A stretch of 45,125 nucleotides of DNA from a virus: the IMG/VR virus record IMGVR_UViG_3300014166_000004, positions 1 through 45,125 of that record; one strand, written 5' to 3'. The notes below the pieces were generated by a model. That model saw only the letters and a list, made by a program, of their open reading frames with translations, ran no database searches and was not told the DNA's origin. Made by a program: the position numbers and the translations under genes. Shown here one piece after another: positions 5,454 to 37,957 of the stretch; the first letter of the stretch is position 1; each line of letters begins with the position of its first letter.

Positions 5454-5468
5454 CCGGCCGCCTTTCGC

Positions 5469-6041: not shown

Positions 6042-7426
6042 CAGTACCCGGCGCCGCCGGCGAGGAGCTTGAACGTCGTCGGATCGAGGAGCGCCGCGAG
6101 CGCGCCCGCCTTGAGCACCTGGCCGGGCGCCGGCGGGAGCGCGATCGTCCGCTCCGGCGTCATCTCGATCACGTTGCCGGCGAATTCGACGATCGCCGTG
6201 TTCGCCAGGAGCGACGCGAGGCCCGGGCCCGTCGAGCCGTCGCCCATGATCCCGTACGAGCCGGTTCGGAGGACGTTTCGCGAGAACGTGATCGGCGTCC
6301 GCGGGCCGCCGCTGAATTGTAGGAACCGGCCGGCGATCTTCGGCCAGGTGTTATTCGTGATCGTGAGCGCGTCGGCGACGCCGTTGATCACTTGCACGCC
6401 GCCGCCGGCGTCGGCGAAAAGATTGTGATCGATCGTGAGCTTGCGGAGTTGACCCGACGGCCCGGCGTCGTCGCGCCCGAGCACGTTCACGGAGAACCCA
6501 TCCGGCGCGCGGCGAACGGTGTTCCCGCGGATCGTTACATCGTCGACGGTGCACCATGGGCAATTGCCTTGCCCGCGGACGGTGATCACGATCGTCGAGC
6601 CGGCCTGGCCGTCGGTCCAGTTGCCATCGATCGTATTGCCCTCGATCACGACGCCGATCCCGATCTTCGCCTCGACGGAATTCTTGACCGTGCCGAGCGT
6701 GCGGAACGACTCCGGCTTGCGGATCGTGTTCCCCTTGATCGTGATGTTTGCCGGGTTCATGCCGACGATCCCAGGCGTCGCGCCGCCGATCAGGATGTTC
6801 TCGCCCGTCGCCTCGAGTACGGAATCGAGCACGGCATAGGGCCCGGGCCCGTTGCAGATCCACACGGCCTGAGAGTCGCGGCCCTTTTCATAGAACCCCA
6901 GGACCGACACGCGCCGGAGCGTGATGTCGGCGCCGTGGAGCGCGAACCCGCGATGCCCGCCGCCCTCGAGCGACGGGAGGACGTTCACGTCCTCGAATAG
7001 CACGCCGTGCGGTTGCGCGTCGGCGCTCGTCGCCTCGAGTGAACCGACAACGATCGCATCGCGATCCGGTTTCCCCAGGCGAACAGAGAGCCCGCGAACC
7101 TCGACGCCGTTCGCCGCGACGGTGAGCGTCGGCTTGAACCCGTCGGCCGCGGTGAGAGTCGCGCCGGCGCCGGCGAGCTTCGTCGGTTTGCTGATCGTGA
7201 AATTGCCGGCGTAGGTACCAGGCGCGAGGGTGATCGATCCGCCGGCGGCGAGCGCGGCGCCGAGCGCGGCCGCATCGGTGACAGTCGCGCCAGGCGCCGG
7301 CGCGGTGAGCGACGCGCGGAGCTTGTCGAGCGTCGCCTGGAGTTGATCGAGGAGTTGCGCCGGCGTCGGTGACTGCGGCGCTTGCGCCAGGAGGAGGAGG
7401 ACGGCGATCGCGGCTTTGAGCTTCAC
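6041..7426 (-). CDS. Secreted right-handed parallel beta-helix protein (pectate-lyase-like fold)
   Basis: A 461-residue protein with a clear signal peptide (MKLKAAIAVLLLLAQA, cleavage likely after Ala16), a short helical linker, then a parallel beta-helix. The helix opens SLTAPAPGATVTDAAAL...GGSITLAPGTYAGNFTISKPTKLAGAGATL, the usual cap and first rungs of pectin-lyase-like proteins. Many rungs carry Asn ladders (ITIKGNTIRK, VVIEGNTIDGN, VTIRGNTVRR, LTIDHNLFAD, LTITNNTW). Polysaccharide lyase, depolymerase or glycan-binding roles are typical of the fold. A signal peptide is unusual for a phage tailspike and implies export from the cell. The GTG start overlaps the upstream stop (GTGA). Confidence 0.75.
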   Translation of the reverse strand: MKLKAAIAVLLLLAQAPQSPTPAQLLDQLQATLDKLRASLTAPAPGATVTDAAALGAALAAGGSITLAPGTYAGNFTISKPTKLAGAGATLTAADGFKPTLTVAANGVEVRGLSVRLGKPDRDAIVVGSLEATSADAQPHGVLFEDVNVLPSLEGGGHRGFALHGADITLRRVSVLGFYEKGRDSQAVWICNGPGPYAVLDSVLEATGENILIGGATPGIVGMNPANITIKGNTIRKPESFRTLGTVKNSVEAKIGIGVVIEGNTIDGNWTDGQAGSTIVITVRGQGNCPWCTVDDVTIRGNTVRRAPDGFSVNVLGRDDAGPSGQLRKLTIDHNLFADAGGGVQVINGVADALTITNNTWPKIAGRFLQFSGGPRTPITFSRNVLRTGSYGIMGDGSTGPGLASLLANTAIVEFAGNVIEMTPERTIALPPAPGQVLKAGALAALLDPTTFKLLAGGAGY

Positions 7427-11200: not shown

Positions 11201-12377
11201 TGATCGGATCCGCGTCGTCGAAATAAATCGAGTAGTCGACGCAATCGACGTCCGTCCGATTGTTCGGCGAGCTCGCCGTCATCCCGACGACGCGCCGTAC
11301 GAACGTGAGCCCGCTAAAGAGCGGCGTTACGCCGTCGCGCGCGTAGATCAATACGTCGACGCCGCGGCCCGGGATCTCCTCGTCGCCGAACTCGAGGCGC
11401 GCCGACGCCTGGCGGTTCAGGGTGAGCTCGATCTCGACGGCCGCAATGTCGATCGTTCGATCGTCGCCGCCGACCTCGATCCGGAGCCCGTTCACGATCA
11501 GCGTGTATTCGCGCGTGCCGGTGAGCCCGAGATCATCCGTCGCCCGAACGGTGAACGTGTAAGTACCCGCCGTCGTCGGCAGGCCGGCGAGCACGCCCAG
11601 GCTCGAGAGCGCCAGGCCCGGCGGGAGCGTGCCGGCGCTTTTGTCGAACGTATACGGCGGCCCGTCGCCGCCCTCCGCCGTGAAGATCTGGACGTAGAGC
11701 CATCCGCGGCGCGCGTTCGCGATCGGCGGAACCGGGAGCACGACGATCGGATCGTTCACGACGGAGAGCGTGATCCGGAGCACGCCCGGGCAATTGTTCG
11801 CATCGATCGCGCGGAGCTCGACGACGGTCGCGCCGAGCGTCGTCGGCGTTCCGCTCAGCACGCCGGCGCTCGAGAACGCCATGCCGGCCGGGAGCGTGCC
11901 CTCCGCGAGATCCCAGGTGTACGGGCCGACGCCGCCGGCGGCCGCGAATGGGATCGCCTGGCCTCCGATGTAGGCGCCGCCCTGCTGTAGCTCGAGCGGA
12001 TCCGGCGACGGGTTCGGCGTGATCGTGATGAACGAACATCCGGCGCCGCCCGGGCCCGCCGGCGGCCCGACGAGCGCCACGGTGTGAACGCAATCGATGA
12101 GGAGGTGCGCGCCGTTGTCGAGGAGCCCGTCGACTTGATACGTGTAGACGCCGAGCGCCGCCGGCGTGCCGATCATGTAAAGCTGCGACGAGCCGCCCGG
12201 GCAAACGTACGGCGTCAGGCCAGGCGGCGGCGTGCCGCTCGAGATCGTCGCCGACACGAGGGTGATCGCCGGGCCCCACGTCGCCAGGTGCACGGATTGC
12301 CCCGTGAACGTGAGACACGCCGATCCCATGTTCGTTTTGTAGGAGAGCCCGAGTCTGATCGTGCGAACGTCGCTCAT
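8262..12377 (-). CDS. Tail tip / hub and fibre fusion protein with Ig-like domains
   Basis: A 1371-residue protein. Residues ~115-300 hold two He_PIG-type Ig-like repeats with the signature LPxGhxhSSxGVLxGxPTT (161-180 and 250-269). Residues ~300-845 resemble tail-hub/baseplate proteins (EIELTLNRQASARLEFGDEEIPGRG, then FKRITDATGVVFRVR, ending ITAQEADEYAGSFVEQW). A Gly/Ser/Pro linker follows, then fibre-stalk repeats DQSLGxHKLTxVxDP...AQDAATKA at about 880-990. The C-terminal ~380 residues contain two related beta-rich domains (each with STAEA..AT/AY and ending RYARWIAVLRA or FSNRILAVIRLN), likely the receptor-binding end. Placed directly after the tape measure, it fits the siphovirus tail tip. 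Structural role is confident; individual domain borders are estimates. Confidence 0.8.
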   Translation of the reverse strand: MSDVRTIRLGLSYKTNMGSACLTFTGQSVHLATWGPAITLVSATISSGTPPPGLTPYVCPGGSSQLYMIGTPAALGVYTYQVDGLLDNGAHLLIDCVHTVALVGPPAGPGGAGCSFITITPNPSPDPLELQQGGAYIGGQAIPFAAAGGVGPYTWDLAEGTLPAGMAFSSAGVLSGTPTTLGATVVELRAIDANNCPGVLRITLSVVNDPIVVLPVPPIANARRGWLYVQIFTAEGGDGPPYTFDKSAGTLPPGLALSSLGVLAGLPTTAGTYTFTVRATDDLGLTGTREYTLIVNGLRIEVGGDDRTIDIAAVEIELTLNRQASARLEFGDEEIPGRGVDVLIYARDGVTPLFSGLTFVRRVVGMTASSPNNRTDVDCVDYSIYFDDADPITIVSTATQYLEDVIAEIVDQALDVYGITYDAAPTGKTVPPISWQAITVPDAFKRITDATGVVFRVRPRLVLGVLERKALDVFVPLDDAAPVTITDAEINAFDLTWQDPPNLPRNTVDLLCGPTGTAIVTQDWEADGYATAFEVDIQAVLGDYWPGARSHAFLGVTGNFAAGDTVTLGSSVYTWRAALVGDVAGEVLIGADGDHSLANLVAAIVGAGGGVYAPSTPVNTSADAYIRFPDQLAANALTVGVAGNSIALATTGHGQWYGEGGIPITTMQLGSDPSGAAGWTQGYVLENGSAAVPIGTGVYTWDVTAGRGTITAATAPPAGTTLELKYLAVMPFHVKYPASLGPGVAPITFRENHPEIDSYATGLELAQRIYARESNDRRELEIFTDVDGFLPGQELSIDTTYRGGIIDEFLVAAVRIKLVNAELWEYSITAQEADEYAGSFVEQWKALTSGGGGGGSSSTAPAPVVPGDVSAAGDVYTDGRNAFRADQSLGGHKLTFVHDPVAAQDAATKASAAAGDAATLASAHTYSDAGDVTTLAAAAAAVAADHYIKRDGSVAFTGDQSLGAHKLTNVTDPGSAQDAATKAYVDAQVSGGGGGVGDAGFFGVGPGASTYAAGPLLVKPTGTTLTFIVGIGSIGTGDALVVANVQLTDLTLDDNRAVMNRSLVSFGGQHLFGLVHITGLTAGKTYAASLTYQARVNAAAFAGGPGPGQPFLICLNQVTEVKAASLETAEASSSATFADLATAGPSATITIGSDGLAAVIAGDSENRVQTGTSSLGVVVSGANTLAAATFIGQSTNGAQNCVLQGGLMLARLASGSTTFKLQYASDGGSNTRYARWIAVLRATYGGAIVTFGISAVSTAEARASTAYGALTTADSVTLTTGTSVLVLFSCNVGGSGVLDASVAVDVSGATTIAAADGVSNAKNICSTSTYHVGRGVVLTVNAGSNTFALRYKASTGTATFSNRILAVIRLN

Positions 12378-16344: not shown

Positions 16345-16953
16345 CTAGAGCGCGGCGTCCGTCTGCACGACGATCCGCCCGAAGTACTCCGACGGATCCG
16401 ACGCGTCGGGATCGACGAGCGCGGTCCACTCGATCGCGAGTTGCGCCGGCTTGTCCTTCGTGAAAACCGGCTTCGGTTCGCCGGTCTGCGCGGCGCGCGG
16501 ACATTCGTATTGCATCGCGCCGTCCTCCATCTCCGGCGACGGGCCGCGGAGGAGAACGGCGCGCGTGTCGACGGTGAACCCGCGCGACAGGCCGATCTTC
16601 TTCGTGCCGGGAACGCCCGACGCGGCCGGCGTCGTCGTGACGGTGTTCCCGTTGAGCGCGAACGAATACTGCTCGAGCGTCACGTCGACGAGCATGAGCC
16701 CGATCTTGAGATCTTCGCTCGAGCGGAACACCTTTCGCGATCCGGCGTCGCCGAGCGAGCGCCAGAACGCCATCGCCTGAGCGTGATCGACGTTGACGCC
16801 GGCCTCGTCATAGTTCAGCGGGCCCGCGGCGCCGATGAGCGTCCAGTCGCTCGCGTCGGGAACGGTGTCGACGTCGGGGAACGCCGTTCCGACGGGCGCG
16901 ACCCACATCGTAAACGGCGCGGCGAGTACCTCGAGCGGAACGGCATTCTTCAC
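16345..16953 (-). CDS. Major tail tube protein
   Basis: A 202-residue protein (MKNAVPLEVLAAPFTMWVAPVGTAFPDVDTVPDASDWTLIGAAGPLNYDEAGVNVDHAQ) with the plan of siphovirus tube subunits: an N-terminal arm with VAPVGTAFP, a core of beta strands (LKIGLMLVDVTLEQYSFALNGNTVTTTP), and a late strand PAQLAIEWTALVDP. It would polymerise into the hollow tail tube around the tape measure. The GTG start is preceded by GGAGG with six bases between. Its place two genes before the chaperone pair fits. No sheath gene is present, so the tail is non-contractile. Confidence 0.8.
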   Translation of the reverse strand: MKNAVPLEVLAAPFTMWVAPVGTAFPDVDTVPDASDWTLIGAAGPLNYDEAGVNVDHAQAMAFWRSLGDAGSRKVFRSSEDLKIGLMLVDVTLEQYSFALNGNTVTTTPAASGVPGTKKIGLSRGFTVDTRAVLLRGPSPEMEDGAMQYECPRAAQTGEPKPVFTKDKPAQLAIEWTALVDPDASDPSEYFGRIVVQTDAAL

Positions 16954-18829: not shown

Positions 18830-20827
18830 TTAGGAGGGTTCGTGTCCGACGTTCTTGTAGAGCCCGCGCCAGTCGAGCACCTTCGCCGCGAAGTCCTCGC
18901 GACACTTGATCTCGACGCCATCGACATCGAACCCGATCCGGGTTTCGATCGTCGGCCCCTCCTCGCCCTCGAGGTAGCCGTATTCGATGATGTCGATCTG
19001 CGCCGGATCCGCCGCCAGGAACCACGCGAGCGGTTCGTTGTCGAGCCGCGGTTCCGCGATCACGGTGAGTTTCCCGCTGAACGGGTTCACGGCGAGCACG
19101 GTCTGCGGCGTGATCGGCGTGACGATCGCATCGCCCTGCGTCTCGAGGGCGGAGCCCACGAGGAGATACTTCGGCGCGATGTTGAGCCGCTCGCCGTCGA
19201 GCGATACCTGCTGGCGCATCGCCGCGCGCGCCGCGCCGAGCGAGTCGACATCGATCACGGCGCCGCTCGAATCGATGTTGAGGTGCGCCGCGGAGAAGAG
19301 CGCGTTCCCGTCGCCCATCGTCGGGTTGCTCGTGATCTGATCCCACACGAGATCGCTCTCGAGGTTCCGCGCCGCGCGCCCGAACATCGTCGGCACGCGG
19401 CCGAACGCGTCGGCGTCGTCGTTCACGAGGGCCTTCCGCGTGATGGCGAACACGCGGCCGTACGTCGCAAGCTGGTACGTCTCGCGGCCCTCGCCGATCG
19501 TGCCCCGCTTGAACTCGCCGTGCTCCTTCACCTCGAGGAGCGCCGGCGCGTCGCCCATCTGCTGACGGTAGACGGGTTTGAAATCGGGGAGGTTGACCTG
19601 GCGCGCGATCGTCTTGAACGTCTGCGGCGCCTCGTCGTACGCCTTGCGGACGGTTTTGTTGGCGACGTCGGCCAGGAGGTACGCGAAATCGCTCGTCGTG
19701 TGGTAGCCGTGCCCGCTGCGCTGATTGAGCCCGAGCGCCGCGGCGGCGAGCTCCATCTTCGAGAGGCCCGACGTCCGCACGCCGGCCGCGTGGAGAAACG
19801 TCCGCGCCGTGTCGAGGAGCGTGAGCCCGCGATACGGCCGACTCTTGTCGTCGAGTTTGAAAAACTGCGGCGCGATCCGGTGCAGCAGGGCCGCCTCGAT
19901 CCCGCCCCGCACGTGCACCAGCGGATCCTCGCCGAGCGTGACGGAGGTACCGGGTTGCGGGCCGCGATCCTGCGCGCCGCGCGCCTGGAGCTCGACGAAC
20001 ACGAGGCGCGACACCTCCGCGAGCGGCGTCCGCTTCTCGATGTGGTGATCGATGAACTCCTGCGGCATCCGGCCGCCGCGGGCGGCGGTGATGATGCCCT
20101 GGACGCGGGCGGTTTCGTCGGCGGCGGCGCGTTCGGCGACCGTCGGTTCGGCCGCGGGAGCCGGTCGCGCGGCGGGTTCCGCCGGGTGGAGCCGGAGGGC
20201 CGCGGCGGCGGGATCTTCGGCGACAGTTTCGGCACGGCGAGCGGCATCGTTCACGGCAGGCTCCTTACGGATGATGAGACACGGATTGGAATCGGCGCGA
20301 TCGTTCTCGCCTTTGCGAGTCCGCGCGCCGGTGTCGGCCGGCATGGGAACCATTGAGATCTCGTAAGGTTCCCAATCGATCGCCGTACGAACAGGGATCG
20401 CGCCGGTGTCGTCCTGCTCGAATTTGTGGACGCGGTACCCGACGCTGACGTTTTGCAGGATGCGATCTTTGACGTCGTTCCAGATCGGCGTCACAGAATC
20501 GCGGTTGCTGAACCGAACCCGAACGATCGCCTTCCCGTTTTCGATCCGGAACGTGTTCGGCACGACGGTGCCGATCTGATCCTCGACCGACCACGCGGAA
20601 TGCGCGTTGAGGAGCGGAGCCGTTTGGAGGCGCGCGACGCGGATCGCGTCGGCGGAGATCTCGAGGGCCTCGAGGTACTCGCCGGTGTCCCAATCGAACC
20701 GGCGAACCTGCGCGCCCGTGGAGAAAATGAGCTCGATCGAGCGATCGGTTTCGTTGATCGTGTCGGCGGCCGCCCGCGCCAGGAGCGAGAGCGGCGGAAC
20801 ATCGATCGTCGTCGCGGCCGGTTTCAT
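18830..20827 (-). CDS. Prohead protease-major capsid protein fusion
   Basis: A 665-residue two-domain protein. Residues 1 to ~170 are a prohead protease of the HK97/U35 herpes-assemblin type: IELIFSTGA (32-40), LLNAHS with His76, then NVSVGYRV with Ser128 and DWEPYEISMVPMPAD (151-165) with Glu156. An Ala/Pro/Glu-rich linker (~195-240) follows. Residues ~260-665 are a Mu gpT-like major capsid protein (TLGEDPLVHVRGGIEAALLHRIAP, RGLTLLDTARTFL, TYGRVFAITRKALVNDDADAFGRVP, and a C-terminal IIEYGYLEGEEGPTIET). The protease would cut itself off during maturation, as in known fused systems. The gene follows the HTH gene after 74 bp that contain a hairpin. Confidence 0.9.
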   Translation of the reverse strand: MKPAATTIDVPPLSLLARAAADTINETDRSIELIFSTGAQVRRFDWDTGEYLEALEISADAIRVARLQTAPLLNAHSAWSVEDQIGTVVPNTFRIENGKAIVRVRFSNRDSVTPIWNDVKDRILQNVSVGYRVHKFEQDDTGAIPVRTAIDWEPYEISMVPMPADTGARTRKGENDRADSNPCLIIRKEPAVNDAARRAETVAEDPAAAALRLHPAEPAARPAPAAEPTVAERAAADETARVQGIITAARGGRMPQEFIDHHIEKRTPLAEVSRLVFVELQARGAQDRGPQPGTSVTLGEDPLVHVRGGIEAALLHRIAPQFFKLDDKSRPYRGLTLLDTARTFLHAAGVRTSGLSKMELAAAALGLNQRSGHGYHTTSDFAYLLADVANKTVRKAYDEAPQTFKTIARQVNLPDFKPVYRQQMGDAPALLEVKEHGEFKRGTIGEGRETYQLATYGRVFAITRKALVNDDADAFGRVPTMFGRAARNLESDLVWDQITSNPTMGDGNALFSAAHLNIDSSGAVIDVDSLGAARAAMRQQVSLDGERLNIAPKYLLVGSALETQGDAIVTPITPQTVLAVNPFSGKLTVIAEPRLDNEPLAWFLAADPAQIDIIEYGYLEGEEGPTIETRIGFDVDGVEIKCREDFAAKVLDWRGLYKNVGHEPS

Positions 20828-21148: not shown

Positions 21149-22768
21149 CTACCCCTCCGCGGCCGCTCCGTCGGCCGGCGCGTTTGGATCCGCCGGCGCG
21201 TTCGGATCGTTCGGTGTCGCCGGCGCGGCCGGGTTCGCCGGCGCGGCCGGGTTCGCTGATTGCGCCTGGCCGGCTTGCGTCATGCGCCGCGGATCGGAGT
21301 CGAGCACGACGCCGGCTTTGTCGAGCGCCTCGTTCCACGCCTTCATTTCGGCGAGCACCTTCGCCGGATTGAGCCCGCGCGCGCGGAGCTCCTCCTGCAT
21401 CGTCGTGATCCCCGATCGCACGTTGCGGAGGATCGCGAGGCCCTCCGACGCCGGATCGATGAACTGCGCCGGCGGCGGCGTCCAATCGACGGGCGGCGTG
21501 TCGACAGTTTTCAGCACGCCGGCGATCGCCGCGGCCTCCATCGCCCAGGCCCACACGGGATCACAGAACCCAGGGATCACGATCCGCCAGCGGTGATCGT
21601 CGATATCGGGTTGATGCGCGATCCGCTCCATCCGCGCCGCGGAGAATGAGAGATCGCGGAAATCCCCCGTCATGCTCGAGAACAGCACGCGGAGGCCGGC
21701 GGCGAGCCCGCGGAGCTTGCGATCCATGTAATCGCCGAAATCGTTCACGCGCGGAGGCTCGACGACGGAGATCTGGCGGCCGGCCGGGAGGTTGCTCACC
21801 ATGCCAGGCACGAGCGCGTCGATCGCCGGCGTCGGTTGATCGTTTGGTTCGCCGAGCGGCGCGCCGCCGCCGTCGAGATCGTCGCGGACGAACACGGCCA
21901 GGCACGCGGCGATCTTTTGCTTCACGAGCGTCGCGTCGTCGTAATCGTCGAGATCCTTCCACGCCAGGAGCGACGGCGCGAACCATGAAACCGCGCGCAC
22001 CTGGCCGGGCCGCTCGCCGCGGAACAGGTGGAGCACGCCCTCCGCCGGGATCCGAACCGACGGCGAGAACGATCCCGCGATCGATCCCGGGTGTTCGCGG
22101 AACATCCAGTAGGCGACGCGTTGACCGATCGGCGAGAACTCGATCCCCTGGATGATCCGGCCGCCGTTCGGCGTCGTGATCTGATCCTTTGCCGTGTCGA
22201 GGAAATCAGGCTCGACGATCTGTAGTTGCATCGGGATCGGGAGCGGCCGCCCGTTCGTGTCGACGTCGCCGGGGAGCCGGTAGCGCCGGCGGATCAGCAC
22301 CTCGCCCGACTCCGCGATCGTGCGGAGCACGAGCTTCTCGAGGCCGTAGAAATCGTGCCGGCCGTCGGCGTCGCATGCCGTCGACTCGCCCCAGGCGCGC
22401 CAGAGCGCCATCGCGCGCGCGTTCGTCGAGTCGGGAACGATCCCCCATCCGATCGTTTCGTTCACGATCGAGGCGAGCGCCGCGGCCGCGTATGGATTGT
22501 TTCGCACGAGATCGCGGACGGCGTTCCGGAGGTTCGCGGCCGCGGGCCCGATCGCCGCGTTCGCATCGGTGCCGGGTTTCTTCCAGCCCTGCGTCCGGTA
22601 TGTGCTCGCGGCGCCTTCATAGTGCCGCGCCAGGATCTCGCCGGCGTAGCGGGCCCGTTGCCGCTTGAGCGTCCATCGCGGAGCGACGGGCGCGGTGATC
22701 CGATCGAGCCGCTCGCCGAACGTGCGGCGCCGCGGCGGTTCTGATCTTTCGACTCTCTCGAATGCCAT
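21149..22768 (-). CDS. Portal protein (lambda gpB family)
   Basis: A 539-residue protein. YEGAASTYRTQGWKKPGTDANAAIGPAAANLRNAVRDLVRNNPYAAAALASIVNETIGWGI is the classic N-terminal signature of the gpB/phage portal lambda family. Then come ESGEVLIRRR, LQIVEPDFLD, GIEFSPIGQRVAYW, VLHLFRGERPGQVRAVSWFAPSL and LFSSMTGDFRDLSFSAARMERI, all expected in order. It forms the dodecameric ring through which DNA is packaged. The C-terminal ~40 residues are a Pro/Ala/Asn/Asp repeat (NPAAPATPNDPNAPADPNAPADG), mirrored by a tandem DNA repeat at 21175-21255. It follows the glycosyltransferase cassette, not gpW as in lambda. Confidence 0.93.
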   Translation of the reverse strand: MAFERVERSEPPRRRTFGERLDRITAPVAPRWTLKRQRARYAGEILARHYEGAASTYRTQGWKKPGTDANAAIGPAAANLRNAVRDLVRNNPYAAAALASIVNETIGWGIVPDSTNARAMALWRAWGESTACDADGRHDFYGLEKLVLRTIAESGEVLIRRRYRLPGDVDTNGRPLPIPMQLQIVEPDFLDTAKDQITTPNGGRIIQGIEFSPIGQRVAYWMFREHPGSIAGSFSPSVRIPAEGVLHLFRGERPGQVRAVSWFAPSLLAWKDLDDYDDATLVKQKIAACLAVFVRDDLDGGGAPLGEPNDQPTPAIDALVPGMVSNLPAGRQISVVEPPRVNDFGDYMDRKLRGLAAGLRVLFSSMTGDFRDLSFSAARMERIAHQPDIDDHRWRIVIPGFCDPVWAWAMEAAAIAGVLKTVDTPPVDWTPPPAQFIDPASEGLAILRNVRSGITTMQEELRARGLNPAKVLAEMKAWNEALDKAGVVLDSDPRRMTQAGQAQSANPAAPANPAAPATPNDPNAPADPNAPADGAAAEG

Positions 22769-22772
22769 TCGC

Positions 22773-23384
22773 TTACCCCTTTTCCGGAACGATCGGGATC
22801 CGCCGCGTCGGGTTCGGTTCGGGCCCGCGACACGGGCATCGCTTCGCCGTCGGAACCGTCGACGGGAGCGCGTCGCCGTGCGCCCGCCGCCAGTGATAGA
22901 CGTACAGACTCTCGAGGACGTAGACGCGGAGCCCGGCGCGCGCGATCGCGAAATGCATCATGTGATCGACGCACAACATACCGTCGACGAACCCGCCGGC
23001 GAGCTCCCAGGAGCGCCGCGAGAGCATCATGAGCACGCCGCCGATCCCCTTCGTCTCCGTGCAATCGAGGAGCGTTCGCCGCTCGAGGCGCGCCGCGCCG
23101 ATCTTCCGGTGGTACGCCATGTCGTGATTATCGTGATCGGCCTCGCGCGCCCGCTGCCACGGCGACGCGATCCGGTTCGTCGTCGCAGTGACGAGGCCGA
23201 CGTCGGGCCGGTGCTCGATCACTTCGTGCAATTGCCGGTACCACTCCCGCGTCGTCGGCATCGCATCATGATCGAACAGACACGCCCAACCGTCGGCCGG
23301 GAGCATCGCCATTGCGCGATTGTAGGCGCGCCCCAGGTTCGCCTCGAGATCGAACGGTATGAACGTCGTGAGCTCTATCGCCAT
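22773..23384 (-). CDS. Glycosyltransferase, GT-A fold (GT2-like)
   Basis: A 203-residue protein (MAIELTTFIPFDLEANLGRAYNRAMAMLPADGWACLFDHDAMPTTREWYRQLHEVI). The phrase NLGRAYNRAM followed by DGWACLFDHDAM is the strand-helix and DxD motif (DHD) of GT-A glycosyltransferases. KGIGGVLMMLSRRSWELAGGFVDGMLCVDHMMHFAIARAGLRVYVLESLYVYHWRR is the acceptor-side half with a catalytic-type Asp. It is the last of four sugar-handling genes just before portal. The start overlaps the preceding glycosyltransferase by 10 nt; ATG at 23396 is an alternative. Substrate unknown. Confidence 0.82.
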   Translation of the reverse strand: MAIELTTFIPFDLEANLGRAYNRAMAMLPADGWACLFDHDAMPTTREWYRQLHEVIEHRPDVGLVTATTNRIASPWQRAREADHDNHDMAYHRKIGAARLERRTLLDCTETKGIGGVLMMLSRRSWELAGGFVDGMLCVDHMMHFAIARAGLRVYVLESLYVYHWRRAHGDALPSTVPTAKRCPCRGPEPNPTRRIPIVPEKG

Positions 23385-24076
23385 TCGCTGACCCATGGAT
23401 AATGCGCGCTCTGCTCGAGCACCTCGAGATCGTCGGAGCCGAGCACGACGATCCGCGCGCCTCGCGGGAGGTGCGGATGGCCAGGACCGACGCCGCGGCG
23501 CTCGAGCCGCTCGTATCCCTTGCCGAAAAACGTCACGAGCCCGTCGGCCTCCGTCCACACGGCCGGCCGGATCGCCGGCGTCCGCGATAGATAGAAATTG
23601 AGCATCGCCTGATCGCTCCCGACGCCTCGAGGCGCCGCGCGCCTGGCGTAGCCGTCGGGATCCGCGTCGAACGCGCGCCAGAGCGGATCGAGCACGCCGG
23701 CGTCCATGAGGACGATCGAGCCGGAGAACACGCCCGCATATGCGACGCGCCAGCACACGAGCGGATCCGGCCGATCGACGAGCGGCGTTATGTCGTCGAC
23801 GATCACGACGTCGAGATCGAGCGACAGGATCCGATCGCCGATCGCGCGCGCGAACTCCCGATCGAACTGGCGCATCCGCCGCCGGCATCGCGGCGAGTCG
23901 GCATGGCGGGCCGGGAGCTCGAGCACCTCGATCGCGTCGTCGAGGCCGGCGCCGTCGTCGGTGACACAGACGATCCGGTGCTCGAGCTCGAGGCGCCGCG
24001 CGAGCATCGATCGGAGCGTGTTCACGTGGCGCGCGCCAAACTTCGATCCCCACTTCCACGTGAGGACGGTTAGCAC
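23375..24076 (-). CDS. Glycosyltransferase-like protein (nucleotide-diphospho-sugar transferase fold)
   Basis: A 233-residue protein opening VLTVLTWKWGSKFGARHVNTLRSMLARRLELEHRIVCVTDDGAGL. A first strand is followed by HVNTL and IVCVTDD, as in GT-A enzymes acting on NDP-sugars. GDRILSLDLDVVIVDDITPLVD carries the metal-binding DLD motif. GSDQAMLNFYLS is a further family-like motif, and the C-terminus is PRGARIVVLGSDDLEVLEQSAHYPWVSEWR. The GTG start lies over the stop of the triple-domain enzyme, with GGGAG upstream. Part of the four-gene glycan cassette; donor and acceptor unknown. Confidence 0.75.
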   Translation of the reverse strand: MLTVLTWKWGSKFGARHVNTLRSMLARRLELEHRIVCVTDDGAGLDDAIEVLELPARHADSPRCRRRMRQFDREFARAIGDRILSLDLDVVIVDDITPLVDRPDPLVCWRVAYAGVFSGSIVLMDAGVLDPLWRAFDADPDGYARRAAPRGVGSDQAMLNFYLSRTPAIRPAVWTEADGLVTFFGKGYERLERRGVGPGHPHLPRGARIVVLGSDDLEVLEQSAHYPWVSEWR

Positions 24077-25737
24077 TCCTCGTACTCCCGCTGACCGTCG
24101 AGGAAAAACGCGGCCGCTCGAGGATGGGTGAGTTGCGAGCGGTAGCACGCGAGCGCGCGGAGCTTGCGTTCGATCGAGTCGGCCGCCGGCGGCGAGAGCT
24201 CGAGGCCCTCGCGAATACGTTCGGCGCCGCGGTACGTCTGATACCGACGCACGATGGAACCGAACACCTCGCCGGCGGCCGCCGCGACCGCCACGTGATC
24301 CGCGTGCGAGGCGTTCGCCGACGGCGCCCATATCTCCGCCGGCATGCCGTGCTCGCCGATGAACGCGCGCATCTTGGCGGCGAGATCTCCGCCGGCCCAT
24401 TGCTCGACGGGCCCGGCGCCCAGGATGGCGGCCGCGGCGCGCGACTCCTCGAGGCGTTCCGACGTGTCGCCGTAGTCGCGGACGGACGGATAGCAGATCA
24501 CGATCCGCGGCCGCGCCCGTAACAGCGTGAACGCCGCGAACAGCGTCTCGTCGTCGGCGTGCGGCGCGAATAGAACCGCGTTCCGCTTCACGCCCTCGAC
24601 GAAAAAGACGTCGGGCGGCGCGCCGTGGAACCGCTGACAGAGCGACGCGTCGCGGTACTTCGTCTCGTCGGGCCCGACGTCGAACACGGTGAACCCGCCG
24701 GCCTCGAGGTGCTCGCGGACGAACGCCGGCGTCGTGAACGTGATCGCCGGTTGCGATCCCTTCCATCCGCCGACGCATCGCGACCGCGGATCCGCCGTCT
24801 CGTCCTCCGTGATCCGCACGACGCCGCCAGGCTCGAGCACGCGCGCGAGCTCGTCGACGAACGCCGGCCAGGCGTCGGCCGCGAGGTACATGAGCGCGTG
24901 TGAGATCGTCACGCCTGCGACGGTGCCCGCGGCGAAATCGCGCAGGCCGTCCTCGAATTTCCAACCGAGCGACTTATCGAGGTTCACGAGGCCGTCGAGC
25001 GGATGCCAGGATCGATCGTCGGGGTTTCCGCATCCGAGGTTCAGCCGGAGCGGCGAGCGGATCCCGCCGTGCGCCAGGCGCGCGATCTTCGGGAGTCGAC
25101 TCCGGCCCGTGACGCCGTGCCGGTACGTCGCGAGCACCTCCGGAACATAGCGGCATCGCGCGACCTCCGCGATCGCGATCCAGAAGTACCAGTCCTCCGG
25201 AACCTGGCGATCGTTGAACCGGATCCCGCCGATCGTCGCGCGTCGAATGAGCGGCGCCATGATCGGGATCAGGTTGCCGCGGCGGAGGAGCGGCGCGATC
25301 CATCCGCCGAGCTCGTTTCGATCGTACGAGTATTGTTCCGACGCCTTGATCGTGCGGCGCTTCGCCGCGTCGCGGATCTCGACGTCGCATAGAACCCAAC
25401 CGATAGTCGGATCGAACGCGCGCACCTGGCGATCGAGCTTCGTCGGTTCGATCGTGTCGTCGGCGTCGAGGAACATGAGGAACGCGCCGCGCGCCATCTC
25501 GATCCCGAGGTTCCGCGCCGACGAGGGCCCGCTGTGCGGTTGCCGCATGTAGCGAACCCGACGATCGCCGGCGAACGCGTTGAGCGCCTCCGGCGTCGCG
25601 TCCGTCGATCCGTCGTCGACGACGACCGCTTCGACCTCGACGCCGCCCGTCGACGCGAGCACGCTCGCGATCGCCTCGCCGACGACGGCGCCGTGGTTGT
25701 GCGTCGGAATGATCACGCTCACGAGCGGCGGCGTCAT
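24070..25737 (-). CDS. Triple-domain enzyme: GT2 glycosyltransferase + SAM methyltransferase + PIG-L deacetylase
   Basis: A 555-residue protein with three consecutive catalytic domains. Residues 5-225 form a GT2 glycosyltransferase: VSVIIPTHNHGAVVGEAIASVLAS, VVVDDGS (38-44), metal motif DADD (91-94) and VPEDW (179-183). Residues ~229-385 form a class I SAM methyltransferase: LRLNLGCGNPDD (230-241), and LARVLEPGGVVRITEDE as the post-strand-4 loop. Residues ~386-555 form a PIG-L/LmbE-type deacetylase: FAPHADDE (390-397) and HADH (478-481), both zinc-binding motifs. The plain reading is that one polypeptide transfers a sugar, probably an N-acetyl-hexosamine, and then deacetylates and methylates it; the substrate is inferred. 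The ATG overlaps the upstream stop (ATGA). Confidence 0.88.
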   Translation of the reverse strand: MTPPLVSVIIPTHNHGAVVGEAIASVLASTGGVEVEAVVVDDGSTDATPEALNAFAGDRRVRYMRQPHSGPSSARNLGIEMARGAFLMFLDADDTIEPTKLDRQVRAFDPTIGWVLCDVEIRDAAKRRTIKASEQYSYDRNELGGWIAPLLRRGNLIPIMAPLIRRATIGGIRFNDRQVPEDWYFWIAIAEVARCRYVPEVLATYRHGVTGRSRLPKIARLAHGGIRSPLRLNLGCGNPDDRSWHPLDGLVNLDKSLGWKFEDGLRDFAAGTVAGVTISHALMYLAADAWPAFVDELARVLEPGGVVRITEDETADPRSRCVGGWKGSQPAITFTTPAFVREHLEAGGFTVFDVGPDETKYRDASLCQRFHGAPPDVFFVEGVKRNAVLFAPHADDETLFAAFTLLRARPRIVICYPSVRDYGDTSERLEESRAAAAILGAGPVEQWAGGDLAAKMRAFIGEHGMPAEIWAPSANASHADHVAVAAAAGEVFGSIVRRYQTYRGAERIREGLELSPPAADSIERKLRALACYRSQLTHPRAAAFFLDGQREYEEC

Positions 25738-26468
25738 ACGGCGGCCGCCTCGAGGGCCTCGCGCTCGAGCGCGCGCCAGGTTTCGACGAGCGGGCGGAGC
25801 GTCGTCGACGCCATCCCACGGAAGATCGCGCGACGGAGATCGCTTTTCAGGTGAACGATCCGCGTCGACGACGGATCGAACCGCGTCCACGTGGAATCCT
25901 CGCAATTCCAGATCTCGCCGGGGAGCTTCGCGATCGCGCATCCGTTCCCCGCGCGCTCGAGCATGAACCCGAGCGCCGCCTGGTTGATGCCGGCGTACTT
26001 CATGCGCCAGGGCCGGAGCGCCGCGGCGTCGCCGAGAAACGACCGATTGACGGCGGCCCATTGCTCGACGAACGCGCGCGATCGCGGCGACACGCGAACG
26101 AACACCACGCCGGCGTTGAACGGGAGGCGCGACGCGGCCGCGGTGATCGCGAGATCGAACGGCCGATCCCAGGCGGGATCGAGCGGCCCGAGGATCATCG
26201 TGTCGACGTCGAGGAGGAGCACCTGATCGCCGTCGGCCGACGCGCGGATCGTGTCGCGCCAGGCGTCGAGCTTCGCGGAGTTGTGCTCATGCGCGGGAAC
26301 GCCGAGCGTCGAGCGGTAGGACGTCGGCGCCGGGAGCTCGAGGATCTGGCGGCGCCAGGCCGGCGCGTGACGGAGCGCCGAGTACTCGAGCGCGCGCGCC
26401 ATCCGACGGAACTCGCCGCCCGACGTGCCGGCCCCGAAGTAGACGGAGGCGAGGAGCGGCGCGGCCAT
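25734..26468 (-). CDS. Glycosyltransferase (GT8-like)
   Basis: A 244-residue protein (MAAPLLASVYFGAGTSGGEFRRMARALEYSALRHAPAWRRQILELP...). DQVLLLDVDTMILGPLD supplies the DxD metal motif (DVD) after a hydrophobic strand, as in GT8 and related GT-A enzymes. SRLPFNAGVVFVRVSPRSRAFVEQW, then GINQAALGFML and IVHLKSDLRR match the second half of that fold (the NAGV and H-K motifs). It is the first gene of the sugar cassette, 15 bp after gpW, so it is transcribed with the head genes. Confidence 0.83.
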   Translation of the reverse strand: MAAPLLASVYFGAGTSGGEFRRMARALEYSALRHAPAWRRQILELPAPTSYRSTLGVPAHEHNSAKLDAWRDTIRASADGDQVLLLDVDTMILGPLDPAWDRPFDLAITAAASRLPFNAGVVFVRVSPRSRAFVEQWAAVNRSFLGDAAALRPWRMKYAGINQAALGFMLERAGNGCAIAKLPGEIWNCEDSTWTRFDPSSTRIVHLKSDLRRAIFRGMASTTLRPLVETWRALEREALEAAAV

Positions 26469-26483
26469 GGTCGCGCGCGGCCC

Positions 26484-26693
26484 CTATACGCCCTTGCTCG
26501 TCGTCGCGACCCGGTACGATCGGCGCGTGCCGTCGGCGCCGGCGACCTCCGCTTCCATCACGGCGAGGAGCTTGAGCATGTCGTCGATCGAGTTGAACAC
26601 GACGGTTTGATTGTCGAATGTCATCGATCGAGCGCCGCGGCCGTCGGCAATCGCGCGGCGGAGGTTTTCGGCGTCCGTTGAGGTAAACGGCAT
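26484..26693 (-). CDS. Head-tail joining protein gpW-like (69 aa)
   Basis: MPFTSTDAENLRRAIADGRGARSMTFDNQTVVFNSIDDMLKLLAVMEAEV followed by a short polar tail. Length, a helix-beta hairpin-helix plan and the phrase (R)AIADGxxxxxF..xxVxFxSxxDMLxLLxxME are those of lambda gpW, which sits at the portal and is needed for tail attachment. In lambda gpW lies directly between terminase and portal, as here apart from the inserted sugar genes. It begins 248 bp after the terminase stop. Confidence 0.83.
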   Translation of the reverse strand: MPFTSTDAENLRRAIADGRGARSMTFDNQTVVFNSIDDMLKLLAVMEAEVAGADGTRRSYRVATTSKGV

Positions 26694-26941
26694 GAGCTTT
26701 GCCGGCAGGATAGCACGGCGGCGAGCGCGGCCGTTACTCCGTCGGGCGCCTGGCAGGCCCTACAATCGGCGCCGCCGGCGGGAGGGCCGGAGGGCCGCGG
26801 CGACGCCGGCGCGCCTACAGGCGGGCCGCCTGGCGCGAGCGCCGGCCGGTTTCGCGCGCCTCGAGCTCGCGGGCCGGTGTTCCACGTGGAACAATTCTGT
26901 AATCCTGCTGCCCGCGCTCCACTCCGGCCCACTCCGGCCCA
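26694..26941. other. Largest intergenic region: parS-like palindrome, tandem repeats, shared 12-mer
   Basis: 248 bp without a gene between terminase and gpW. From the terminase side it contains three 10-bp repeats (26919-26948), a 12-mer AATTCTGTAATC (26893-26904) that recurs reversed at 32581-32592, a perfect 16-bp palindrome (26878-26893) and a G+C-rich stretch with an 8-bp tandem repeat GAGGGCCG near 26792. Such density suggests a cis-acting site. No confident promoter for gpW is visible. Confidence 0.6.
26878..26893. promoter_or_regulatory. parS-like ParB-binding palindrome
   Basis: TGTTCCACGTGGAACA is a perfect 16-bp palindrome. The widely conserved bacterial parS is TGTTTCACGTGAAACA, and natural sites often have C at the fifth base or G at the twelfth. 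Here both changes occur symmetrically. The core GTTNCACGTGNAAC is intact. I see only this one full copy in the window, and no parA or parB gene. Confidence 0.6.
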
Positions 26942-26948
26942 CTACGGC
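26919..26948. repeat. Three tandem 10-bp repeats at the terminase 3' end
   Basis: CCACTCCGGC, CCACTCCGGC and CCACTACGGC in direct succession. The third copy holds the terminase stop codon (42-44 of 26942-26944). They lie 26 bp from the parS-like palindrome. Confidence 0.6.
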
Positions 26949-29032
26949 CGCGGCTTTTTCAACCAATCGGGCCGCGACGGAACCCAGGCCGGCCGGCCAG
27001 GCGGCCGCGGCGGCGCCGGCGCTGGACTAGTCGACGGCGCCGGCCGCGGAACTAGGCCAGGGCGGAGCGGCGCCGGCGGCGGAGCGGGCGGCGGCGCCGG
27101 CGGCGTCGGTTCCGGTTCCGGCGTCGAGCTCGAGGAGCTCGAGGAGCTCGCCGGCGGCGCCGTCCGCGGCCTGGCGGCGGCGGCGGCCGCGGCCTCCGTC
27201 TGACCGACGCCCAGGAATTTCTCGCGCGCCTCCCAATCGCGATCGTTCGTCCGATCGACGCCGGCGAGCACGGCGGCCGCTCGAGCGTAGACGCGCGCGT
27301 CGAGCGCGTGATTCTGGCGGCCCTTGATTACTTCCCATTCGAGCCGGATGTACCCGCGCCGCGTTTTGTGCGCGGTGAGTTGCTCCGCGGTGATCTGCCG
27401 AAACCACTCCTCCGGGTACTCCGGATACCGGACGTAGCCGGGCGGCGTCGTGCCGTCTTTCAGGAGCTCGAGCCGGAGCCAGCCGTATAGTTCCGACTTC
27501 ACGATCCCGACGGCGATCGGCCACTGGCGGCCGCCGCGTTTCCGTTTCTTCCCGCTGATCGTGACTTCGATCGCTTGCGGCGTGCCGATGATCGAGGCGC
27601 CGTGATCGACGCCGCGGATCGGGAACGCGCGGCCCGGGTATTTCTTCGCCCAGGTGTAGACCGTTTGCGTTCGGTACTGCGAGTCGACGGCGACGACGCG
27701 GATCGGTTGCTCGACGTCGGGCGCTTCCGCGTGCGGATAGGTGCGCGCCATCATCGCGTCGAGTTGCGGCCAGGGCCCGCGCTCGAGATCGTCGGTGTCG
27801 CCCGCGATCTCGCCGGCGTCGATCGACCATGACCGCTTGCCGCGGCCCCAACCGACGATCTCGTACACGAGGCGATCCTTCTGCACGTCGACGCCGGCGG
27901 TGAGCACGAGCGCGCCAGGCGGGATCATGCTCGTCGCGTACGCCTCGCGCCGGCGATAGAGGTTCTCCCATTCCGGCGCCTCGCCCTTTGATTTCCACAC
28001 CTCGCCCAGGACGGTGTTCACGAACACGCGGAATTTTTCGGGATCCTTTTCGACCTCGACGAACTCCGTCGCGATCTCGCCCCAGGAGATCCAACCGACG
28101 GGCGCGTAGAGCGCGTTGAGGTGATAGCTCCGGATCTTCCCGGCGCCGCGGCCCGGGTTCGTCGCGCGCCATTCGCCGGCGGCGAGCATCACGGATTTTT
28201 GATGGTTGCGAATGAACCCGCCGCACGCCTCGCACTCATAGACCGCGGCCGCGGGCGGGAGCTCGAGCTTCGTCCACACGAGGCGCGAGAACTCGAGCGT
28301 CTGGAACGCGCCGCATATGGGACACGGGACGAAATACTTCCGCGCGTCGCCGCGTTCGTGCGCGGCCTCGATCGCGGAGCGGCCGGCGATCGTCGGCGTC
28401 GAGAACTTCCCTCGCTTGCGGCGCGCGAACGTGCGCTGGCGCGCCTCGACGAGCGCGATCGGCGAGCCCTCCTCCTCGACGTCGATCGGCCAGGCGTCGA
28501 TCTCGTCCATGAGCGCGTATTGCGCCGGCATCGATCGCAGGGCCGCCGCCGATTGTGCGCCGGCGATCACGAGGTGCCCGCCGGTGAATGACTTCTCGAG
28601 GACGGTGTTCGCGGAGTCGCGCGACTTCGCCGGCGCGATCTTCTCCGCGATCTTCGGCGTGTCGGTGATCAGCGGGCCGACGCGTTGACGCGATCCGCGC
28701 TTCGCCGTTGTCAGATCGGGCCATACGAGCATGATCGGCCCGGGCGCGTGATCGATGAAATAGCCGAGCGCGTTGAGGAGCGCCTCCGTCTTTCCGATCT
28801 GCGCGGCGCTCATGAACACGACCTCCTCGACGTCGGAGCGCGAGGAGAAACAATCCATGATCTCGCGGAGGTACGGCGTGCGATCGGTGCGCCAGGGCCC
28901 AGGTTCCGCGCTCGACTTTTTCGGGAGCCGTCGGTGCTGATCGGCCCACTCGCTCACGGAGAGCACGGCATCGGGACGGATGCCGTCGGCGCGCGCCTTG
29001 CGGATCTCGCGGATGGCGGCCGCGTCGCTCAC
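26942..29032 (-). CDS. Terminase large subunit (gpA family)
   Basis: A 696-residue DNA-packaging ATPase and nuclease. The Walker A-type motif SAAQIGKTEA is at 75-84 and Walker B YALMDEIDAWP at 172-182. RSAIEAAHERGDARKYFVPCPICGAFQ and YECEACGG give two CxxC pairs, a zinc site typical of gpA-type terminases. The nuclease half contains VLTAGVDVQKDRLVYEIVGW and VVAVDSQYRTQTVYTWAKKY with acidic residues, then LEWEVIKGRQNHALDARVYARAAA, the characteristic end. A ~90-residue tail rich in Ala, Ser and Pro (eight Ser in a row, then PEPEPTPPAP) is longer than usual. The GTG start overlaps the small-subunit stop (GTGA). Confidence 0.94.
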   Translation of the reverse strand: MSDAAAIREIRKARADGIRPDAVLSVSEWADQHRRLPKKSSAEPGPWRTDRTPYLREIMDCFSSRSDVEEVVFMSAAQIGKTEALLNALGYFIDHAPGPIMLVWPDLTTAKRGSRQRVGPLITDTPKIAEKIAPAKSRDSANTVLEKSFTGGHLVIAGAQSAAALRSMPAQYALMDEIDAWPIDVEEEGSPIALVEARQRTFARRKRGKFSTPTIAGRSAIEAAHERGDARKYFVPCPICGAFQTLEFSRLVWTKLELPPAAAVYECEACGGFIRNHQKSVMLAAGEWRATNPGRGAGKIRSYHLNALYAPVGWISWGEIATEFVEVEKDPEKFRVFVNTVLGEVWKSKGEAPEWENLYRRREAYATSMIPPGALVLTAGVDVQKDRLVYEIVGWGRGKRSWSIDAGEIAGDTDDLERGPWPQLDAMMARTYPHAEAPDVEQPIRVVAVDSQYRTQTVYTWAKKYPGRAFPIRGVDHGASIIGTPQAIEVTISGKKRKRGGRQWPIAVGIVKSELYGWLRLELLKDGTTPPGYVRYPEYPEEWFRQITAEQLTAHKTRRGYIRLEWEVIKGRQNHALDARVYARAAAVLAGVDRTNDRDWEAREKFLGVGQTEAAAAAAARPRTAPPASSSSSSSSTPEPEPTPPAPPPAPPPAPLRPGLVPRPAPSTSPAPAPPRPPGRPAWVPSRPDWLKKPRP

Positions 29033-30507: not shown

Positions 30508-31010
30508 GTCGATCGCGCCTCCGCGCGTCGCTTGCGGAGCCGTTCGTATTCGCCGGCGATCGAGAGCCGGTGAAACTCCTCGATCGGGTACCGGCGCCAT
30601 CCGTCGACGTGATAGAGCCACACGGCGACGACGCCGGCGAACCGGAGGAGCTTCGCGCATTCGATACAGTCAGGGCCGCCCGACACGGCGAGCTCGTCGG
30701 CGTACGATTTCACGTGGATCACTTCGACCGATCCGCCGCTCGCGAGATCGACGCCGCTGAGGATCAGAGCTTGTTCCGCGTGAACGGCCTCCCGCCTGCA
30801 TGTTGCCTTGCATCGATCGGAGCCGTCGCACGGGCCCGCCGGTTGCTGATTGAACCCGACGGCGACGAGCTCGTATCCCTCGAGCGCGCTCCCGGTGAAC
30901 GCGACGGCGCCGCGTTGCGACTGACACGACGACTCCGCCGCGGCCGCGAGCGCGATCGCGACGAAATCGTCGAATGTGATCGGCGGGCCCTTCGTGCCGA
31001 ACGGGATCAC
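30504..31010 (-). CDS. Cytidine/deoxycytidylate deaminase-like enzyme
   Basis: A 168-residue protein with the zinc-dependent deaminase signature: REAVHAEQALIL with His77-Ala-Glu79 and GGPDCIECAKLL with Cys115 and Cys118 as the other zinc ligands. SSCQSQRGAVAF near the N-terminus corresponds to the first strand of the fold, and an extra Cys cluster (CDGSDRCKATC) recalls ComE-type dCMP deaminases, which have a second metal site. It would hydrolyse (d)CMP or a related base; the GTG start overlaps the methyltransferase stop (GTGA). Confidence 0.8.
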   Translation of the reverse strand: MIPFGTKGPPITFDDFVAIALAAAAESSCQSQRGAVAFTGSALEGYELVAVGFNQQPAGPCDGSDRCKATCRREAVHAEQALILSGVDLASGGSVEVIHVKSYADELAVSGGPDCIECAKLLRFAGVVAVWLYHVDGWRRYPIEEFHRLSIAGEYERLRKRRAEARST

Positions 31011-31558
31011 GATCGAGCTCCCGGGATCAGGAGCGCGAACGCGCCGGAGAGCGGGCCCGTCTCGACGATCTCCACGCTCGCGTCGAACACGCCGGCCAGG
31101 CGATCGATATGCGGCCGGAGCGGCGGCGACGCGACCTTGTAATCCTCCGTCGGGATCAGGACCGCCCGGCATCGGTGCAGGCAGTACTCGAGCACGGCGG
31201 GCCGCCGCGGCGTGTCGTGCGGCCCGTCGATCAAACCGAGATCGTAGCGGCGCGGGTTGATCGTCGGGATCGTCAACGGATCCGCCCAGGTGTAGGCGTG
31301 GAGCTCGAGGAGGCCGGCGAACTTGCGGCCCATCCGCGAGCGGTGCACCTCGAGCCACTTCGGATCGTCCTCGCACGAGTCGATCGTCGTCGCCCCGCCT
31401 TCGATGAGCGCGAGCGTCGACGAGCCGGGCCCGAACTCGAGGATCACTTCCGCCGCGAGCGCGCGGACGGTTCCCAGGACGGCGCCATAGTCGGCCATGC
31501 TCCACCAGTGTTTCTCAGCCGGGTAGAGCGTGAACGGCGGCCGCGCGCGTTCGATCAT
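31007..31558 (-). CDS. SAM-dependent methyltransferase-like protein (class I fold)
   Basis: A 183-residue protein. VILEFGPGSSTLALIEGGATTIDSCEDDPKWLEVHRSRM contains motif I (EFGPGSST) and the acidic end of strand 2. YDLGLIDGPHDTPRRPAVLEYCLHRCRAVLIPTEDYK supplies motif IV (LIDGP) and the next strand. This is the Rossmann-like Methyltransf_24 pattern. It is coupled on both sides (ATGA, GTGA) to a zinc-binding protein and the deaminase, so it may modify a nucleotide or small molecule; the substrate is not visible. Confidence 0.68.
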   Translation of the reverse strand: MIERARPPFTLYPAEKHWWSMADYGAVLGTVRALAAEVILEFGPGSSTLALIEGGATTIDSCEDDPKWLEVHRSRMGRKFAGLLELHAYTWADPLTIPTINPRRYDLGLIDGPHDTPRRPAVLEYCLHRCRAVLIPTEDYKVASPPLRPHIDRLAGVFDASVEIVETGPLSGAFALLIPGARS

Positions 31559-36971: not shown

Positions 36972-37205
36972 TCAGATGATCAACCGTGCCGGGATCGCGT
37001 CGACGGCCGGCGTCGCCCGCCGGTGCTCGACGAGCTCCCGCTCGAATTCAGACGCGTCGAGGCCGTCGGCGACGGCGATCCGCGTGATGTAGGCGTGACA
37101 CGGGATCCCGCTTTCGGTCTGCCCCTCCCATATCCGCGCCGGTACCTCGCGGCCCTCGACCATCAGGCGAACGATCTTCGTCGTGCTCTCGAGCGATACC
37201 CTCAT
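36972..37205 (-). CDS. Hypothetical protein (77 aa)
   Basis: MRVSLESTTKIVRLMVEGREVPARIWEGQTESGIPCHAYITRIAVADGLDASEFERELVEHRRATPAVDAIPARLII. A beta-rich first half followed by one helix, the size of small phage proteins that follow the DUF5131 gene. The ATG overlaps that gene's stop (ATGA). No family recognised. Confidence 0.6.
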   Translation of the reverse strand: MRVSLESTTKIVRLMVEGREVPARIWEGQTESGIPCHAYITRIAVADGLDASEFERELVEHRRATPAVDAIPARLII

Positions 37206-37957
37206 GCCCTCGCCTCCGTCGTGTAAGTGGGAACCTCGAGCCACTGGCGGCCGTCGAGCGTGTTCCCGTTCGCCGTCGGGGTTCGGCCGCCCCATTGTTT
37301 GAAGTAGAACGCGACGCCGGCGGCGATCGCCTGATCACGCGCCGAGCGGATGATCGCCGGATCGGCGCCGGCGGGAGCTTTCGGCGAGCTCAGTCCTCCG
37401 GCGATCAACCAATCGATCCCCTCGAGGTTCCATCGCACGTCGGCGATCGCGGGTTCGTAGGAAATGAACCGGCGCGCGGCCGGCGTCGCGCGGAGCTCCT
37501 CGAGGCGCCAGGTGTAATCGGGAGTTTCGACCGTGACGCCATACCAGACGTTCGGCCGCGGCCGCTCGAGCCACGCGGCCGGAACCCGCCGGCGGATCTC
37601 ACGCGCGCGTTTCGTGAGGAGGAGCCAGGTGAGGTTCGGCGTCGCCTCGATCAGATCGAACAGCCGGCGCCGCGGCGCCTCGAGCTCCTCGCGCGCCTCG
37701 AATACGTCGGCCATGGATGCACAAAACACGCGGGCCCGTTTCGCGTCGCGCGCGGCCGCGGCGTTCCATCGGACGGGATCGTGCCAGTGGTGATCGCCGA
37801 AAAAGCGACGCGGCGCGTCGGCGCCCCAAATGCCGAACCCGAGACGGTGAGCGAAGATCCGCGCGTAACACTCGTCGCACGCCGGCGACACCTCGACGCA
37901 TCCCCACCATGGGTTGAACGTGTGATCGGTCCAGCCGATCGCGGAGTCTTTCCCCAC
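37202..37957 (-). CDS. Phage Gp37/Gp68 family protein (DUF5131)
   Basis: A 251-residue protein. SAIGWTDHTFNPWWGCVEVSPACDECYARIFAHRLG is the family signature, with three Cys (GC...CDEC) in radical-SAM-like spacing. Further matches are RVFCASMADVFE, TWLLLTKRAREIRR, NVWYGVTVE, RFISYEPAIADV, IDWLIAGGLS and VAFYFKQWGGR. The biochemical role of this common phage family is not established; the Cys pattern suggests an iron-sulfur or radical-SAM relationship. GTG start; the upstream stop overlaps it (TAGTG). Confidence 0.88.
   Translation of the reverse strand: MGKDSAIGWTDHTFNPWWGCVEVSPACDECYARIFAHRLGFGIWGADAPRRFFGDHHWHDPVRWNAAAARDAKRARVFCASMADVFEAREELEAPRRRLFDLIEATPNLTWLLLTKRAREIRRRVPAAWLERPRPNVWYGVTVETPDYTWRLEELRATPAARRFISYEPAIADVRWNLEGIDWLIAGGLSSPKAPAGADPAIIRSARDQAIAAGVAFYFKQWGGRTPTANGNTLDGRQWLEVPTYTTEARA

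Follow-up and report, generated by a model that had tools for sequence, protein, structure and literature searches.

A glycosyltransferase cassette in the head operon of uncultured soil phages and its predicted role in virion glycosylation

In the virus record analyzed here (45,125 b; hereafter the window), four genes for putative glycan-modifying enzymes, labeled A to D, separate the gene for a gpW-like head-tail adaptor from the portal gene. This arrangement raises the question of which molecule the enzymes modify. Knowledge of phage virion glycosylation so far rests on a handful of mycobacteriophages. We find it probable, without glycan data, that the cassette serves virion O-glycosylation late in infection and acts on the C-terminal serine or threonine of the capsid protein and, in most relatives, also on that of the tail tube. 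The location and coupling of the genes, the folds or families of the enzymes, the replacement of one cassette by another at a single site, and the link to capsid and tail proteins that end in Ser or Thr are direct observations.

Arrangement and exchange of the cassette

The cassette and the head genes all lie on the minus strand, in the order terminase, gpW-like adaptor, A, B, C, D, portal, a small HTH protein and a protease-capsid fusion. The insertion site is bordered on the left by the adaptor (positions 26484-26693, minus strand; PHROG 2545, head-tail adaptor Ad1, E = 1e-10) and on the right by portal (21149-22768, minus strand; Phage_portal_2, E = 4e-96). Gaps of 15 b between gpW and A and of 4 b between D and portal flank overlaps of 4-10 b at the A/B, B/C and C/D junctions. 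A first-pass annotation had described four consecutive, coupled genes that interrupt the gpW-portal pair and would be produced along with the head proteins. The spacing bears out the coupling, and gene order in relatives agrees with insertion: in outgroups, including the cultured Bordetella phage PBb001, gpW adjoins portal and A is absent. Production with the head proteins is also in keeping with gene order, overlaps and relatives, with expression itself being inferred. A scan of 22500-27100 detected no sigma-70-like promoter, and the two terminator-like sites in this interval equal the shuffled expectation. A module of the type found in mycobacteriophages Corndog and Che8 should reside in a structural operon, and the window conforms to this expectation, with four coupled cassette genes between gpW and portal and no internal promoter detected (expression again inferred). 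The gap between terminase and gpW also contains a perfect palindrome, GTTCCACGTGGAAC (26879-26892), that is a possible regulator site.

Three further distinct phages carry A-B-C-D in the same order at the same site, with protein identities of 71-89%. Equally close phages (portal 80-84% identical) have an alternative set there, which consists of a methyltransferase, a glycosyltransferase, a homologue of A (about 52%) and a GT4 enzyme, along with a 77-aa gene in some. A third version of the cassette has eight genes, including one for a nucleotide-sugar epimerase. In more distant phages, B, C and D are located either upstream of terminase or in the terminase-portal interval, and A is right after portal. 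Judged by these comparisons of gene content, whole cassettes are exchanged at one genomic site, a pattern suggesting that a changing virion surface is selected for, much as in bacterial capsules and O-antigens. Neither the window nor its close relatives yielded an integrase.

Gene A is the member that persists. In all 44 distinct phages that have both A and a recognizable portal gene, A is on the portal strand and less than 3.4 kb away; for most of the 44, up to 10 kb on either side was in view. By this survey, A is the constant member of otherwise variable cassettes. A yielded zero matches in 50,697 cultured phage records. Because an A profile also found no relative in the genomes of 84,980 species, we propose no host.

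With 32 changes among the 79 rows of a portal tree, cassette content turns over frequently, as would be expected if the cassette were a moron that hitch-hikes on head genes as passive cargo without a role in the virion. We give this possibility very little weight, as the cassette genes evolve under purifying selection, their catalytic motifs are conserved, and A stays near portal over deep divergence. Estimates of dN/dS for the cassette genes are 0.2-0.6; portal and capsid span 0.23-0.31, so the cassette values fall within this range or exceed it somewhat. PADLOC reported no defense match among the cassette genes.

Enzymes of the cassette

Gene A (25734-26468, minus strand) encodes a GT8-like glycosyltransferase of 244 aa. 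Curated profiles do not recognize it above cut-off (the only match is PF03407, with 14.4 bits against a cut-off of 22), and its assignment is based on the DxD motif and the predicted fold. The motif reads DVD, and both aspartates (87 and 89) are invariant in 9 homologues, together with other residues. An AlphaFold model (pLDDT 90) adopts a GT8-type GT-A fold and matches Skp1 galactosyltransferase (6mw5, Z 17.5), glycogenin (Z about 17), the capsid glycosyltransferase of chlorovirus PBCV-1 (2p6w, Z 17.0) and LgtC (Z 16.0). As modeled, A thus meets the expectation of a GT-A fold plus a DxD motif for the GT8 family. The modeled fold does not reveal the acceptor, because LgtC, a lipid-sugar enzyme, scores almost as high as protein glycosyltransferases.

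Gene B (24070-25737, minus strand; 555 aa) combines GT2, class I methyltransferase and PIG-L deacetylase domains. GT2 is matched in Pfam at 6e-29, PIG-L is just under cut-off (4e-6), and Methyltransf_11 is under cut-off (0.002). In cultured phages, B finds matches only through its GT2 part. In the related record L011 (7995-9697), the GT2-methyltransferase and PIG-L are separate, adjacent genes, which are fused as B in the window. Gene C (23375-24076, minus strand) has a GTG start and encodes a GT8-like glycosyltransferase of 233 aa (phrog_1962, glycosyltransferase, 1e-8). Gene D (22773-23384, minus strand; 203 aa) is GT2/GT-A-like (phrog_14179, glycosyltransferase, 2e-18); its model has a pLDDT of 79 and resembles polypeptide GalNAc-transferase 2 and further GT-A enzymes most closely, though only weakly. 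The domain assignments proposed from the sequence at first pass therefore hold for all four genes: the three domains of B, phage glycosyltransferase families for C and D, and a GT8-type model for A.

The count of four requires amendment. Four genes do occupy the gpW-portal site, but the set is larger. A methyltransferase-like gene (31007-31558, minus strand; 183 aa), for which Pfam gives only a sub-threshold match, precedes the terminase genes both in the window and in its nearest relatives. Its homologue resides between the PIG-L portion of B and C in several more distant relatives (L078, L081, L143, L156 and L034/L087), and on the basis of this gene order it probably belongs to the cassette set.

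The first-pass annotation also raised the possibility that the enzymes remodel a host glycan, so that a late change in a host surface sugar blocks superinfection or re-adsorption of progeny. Family resemblance is the only positive support for this idea: the GT2 part of B matches GtrB-like families of O-antigen conversion, and lipid-linked and capsule enzymes are among the solved structures that it matches best. Like the cassette, gtr clusters (GtrA/GtrB/Gtr) are phage-borne and contain GT2 enzymes. However, they include a membrane flippase and a membrane glucosyltransferase, whereas no membrane-type hydrophobic segment occurs in A-D (maximum 19-residue hydropathy 1.65). Moreover, gtr clusters are expressed in the lysogenic state, whereas the window genes are in a late head operon and would come late. 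Host remodeling also fails to account for capsid and tail proteins that terminate in Ser/Thr, and we regard it as unlikely.

A different target would be DNA, in which sugars are put on hydroxymethylated bases as protection against restriction. Viral glycosyltransferases that act on DNA do exist (Pyle 2024, as cited in PMC12619734), and 4 of 15 relatives encode C5-cytosine methylases. Yet a thymidylate-synthase-type enzyme is absent from 15 records in which controls worked, and the window has no C5 methylase. No Tet/JBP match was obtained either, though the controls for that search were equally silent. The cassette genes, moreover, track the head operon and not replication genes, and we consider DNA hypermodification highly improbable.

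Terminal residues of capsid and tail proteins

Modification of virion proteins, which we favor, calls for an acceptor. The protease-major capsid fusion (18830-20827, minus strand; phrog_4523, 3e-215) ends in ..NVGHEPS. Comparison of terminal residues predicts glycosylation at the last Ser (18833-18835), within the codons for GHEPS (18833-18847, minus strand). Fusion capsids end in Ser or Thr in 20 of 20 A-carrying relatives, compared with 5 of 57 that lack A (Fisher 4e-14). The residues that precede the last one vary among A-carrying phages (HEPS, DENT, EGTS, DQVS, VSDT, ELVS and others), while the last remains S or T; fusion capsids of A-less relatives end in ..NAGA, ..NVGA or ..NPGA. The major tail protein follows the same pattern, with a Ser/Thr end in 23/24 A-carrying and 4/17 A-less phages (Fisher 2e-6). 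It is also found for a lambda-gpE-like capsid, an unrelated protein of a deep sister group (18/18 versus 21/48; Fisher 1e-5). Because Ser/Thr ends are common in gpE-like capsids without A, this last result is insufficient evidence on its own. Portal exhibits only a weak difference (9/43 versus 1/31, p 0.04), and differences between phages with and without A are not significant for gpW, TerL, neck, HTH or tail terminator proteins.

Among the A-less records, A was found in 0/45 in which a positive control was detected and in 0/21 without a positive control, and no GT2 family member scored over cut-off in 97. One record, L347, has a capsid that ends in Ser and no detected A; this record is a fragment in which no portal is present upstream. 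Just upstream of its capsid gene (3812-5854), L347 encodes a 680-aa protein that consists almost entirely of Gly/Ser/Ala/Val-rich repeats.

Within the close clade, capsid tails also correspond to cassette type: all four phages with BCD cassettes have the tail NVGxExS, and all five with a2 cassettes have NAGDENT. Tail-protein ends likewise differ between the cassette types. Only nine phages underlie this covariation, and support is weak for the trees in which they intermix.

The window phage is an exception with respect to its tail. Its major tail protein (16345-16953, minus strand), which corresponds to the predicted acceptor in most A-carrying relatives, ends in ..QTDAAL, and a near relative with a similar capsid tail also has Leu. 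Since this protein ends in Leu, only the capsid is a predicted acceptor in the window phage. Thus, of the two terminal residues expected of a Corndog/Che8-type module, the capsid Ser is present (..HEPS) and the tail-tube Ser/Thr is not. The initial suggestion of capsid or tail glycosylation is accordingly supported for the capsid, by the association of terminal Ser/Thr with A and by published phages with the same layout (PMC4351075), but not for the tail tube of this phage.

The counts above are not independent, because A changes about five times on the capsid tree. In independent pairs, 3 agree, 0 oppose and 1 has no difference; a sign test is not significant. This scarcity of independent contrasts leaves room for the Ser/Thr ends to reflect shared ancestry, with glycosylation directed at another virion protein such as a fiber or the 1371-aa Ig-domain protein at 8262-12377. 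The latter (putative Ig domains, He_PIG 8e-17) has a Ser/Thr content of 17%, which locally rises to 13/30, and is a possible second acceptor; among Ser/Thr-rich stretches of window proteins, it is the only clear alternative. Shared ancestry does not readily explain Ser/Thr ends in two unrelated capsid families and a tail protein, as well as in Che8 and Firecracker, nor capsid tails that follow cassette type within a close clade. We therefore doubt that another virion protein is the target in place of the capsid.

Known glycosylation systems and the proposed mechanism

Among the closest parallels are cluster O (Corndog-group) mycobacteriophages, which have an O-methyltransferase and three glycosyltransferases between portal and protease; a 2015 proposal was that these act on the capsid (PMC4351075). 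Later papers report glycosylation of the Corndog-type capsid and tail tube (PMC11600133, PMC12363180), located in mycobacteriophages at the C-termini of these proteins (PMC12619734); results of Freeman 2023 are taken from papers that cite it. For comparison we used Firecracker (a Corndog relative in cluster O) and Che8; KF017927, which is Odin, was left out. Firecracker has a capsid ending in ..LVGS and a tail protein ending in ..KGDS, and those of Che8 end in ..KTGS and ..SDGS, so that all four terminate in Ser. As in the window, cluster O phages have a methyltransferase and several glycosyltransferases inside the structural operon beside portal. However, the cluster O enzymes are at portal-protease, whereas the window cassette is at gpW-portal. 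Corndog/Firecracker and Che8 also belong to another phage lineage, their enzymes have no clear sequence relation to those of the window, and a PIG-L domain and exchangeable cassettes are features of the window. Within a set of ten sequences, D gives only a weak score of 10.8 bits against gp35 of Firecracker. Corndog-type virion glycosylation is already known; what is new here are the enzymes, their exchangeability and the tail rule. By analogy, and with no glycan data, the window cassette appears by all indirect signs to work like the Corndog-type module, with other enzymes, at another site and in other phages.

Other viruses offer partial parallels. The PBCV-1 capsid glycosyltransferase (2p6w, 2p72, 2p73), which according to its PDB entry title glycosylates the major capsid protein, shares the GT-A fold of A (Z 17.0, rmsd 3.0, 196 residues). 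It is only 12% identical to A, however, and comes from a eukaryotic virus, and nonviral GT8 enzymes score similarly. Tetraselmis viridis virus S20 has glycosyltransferases and a methyltransferase among its head genes, and one enzyme of its cluster is related to C (34%). In contrast to the window, S20 has no A, its cluster is between capsid and head closure genes, and its capsid and tail proteins lack a Ser/Thr end, which counts against the Ser/Thr reading. The S20 cluster (L068, 3125-8708) includes annotated sialyltransferases, and the host given in the S20 record is a green alga, yet this virus is a tailed phage.

The mechanism that we infer for virion O-glycosylation begins with a soluble GT8-like enzyme, which would add the first sugar to the Ser/Thr at the end of freshly synthesized capsid protein. 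This starter is probably A, because A is the constant cassette member. In most relatives, the tail-tube protein would also receive a first sugar at its terminal Ser/Thr. Extension of the glycan would then fall to B, C and D, and trimming to the methyltransferase and deacetylase domains. The virion would thereby acquire a sugar coat whose type is set by the cassette. The benefit is a matter of guesswork, and could be altered surface recognition, for example in binding to host or environment, or protection.

These comparisons suggest that phages with the cassette attach sugars to their own coat, a behavior known from a few mycobacteriophages. They connect virion glycosylation with a large group of uncultured soil phages, and name a constant enzyme and a likely acceptor residue. 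They also provide a simple rule that is testable in any phage collection: a last residue of Ser or Thr in the capsid and tail proteins, and a glycosyltransferase in the head operon. A broader proposal, which is quite possible but falls a little short of being probable, is that soil phages have a "glycotype" system. In it, an exchangeable glycosyltransferase cassette at the portal site and matching C-terminal tags on capsid and tail tube, read by the cassette's own enzymes, switch together, and several capsid lineages, those of mycobacteriophages among them, came to the terminal Ser/Thr rule independently.

Elsewhere in the window, a tRNA-Ala (cgc) call at 6050-6134 is probably spurious, as it is inside a protein-coding beta-helix gene. 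A DUF5131 protein (Pfam 4e-63) is encoded at 37202-37957, and also matches the PADLOC candidate defense models PDC-M41B and PDC-M30B.
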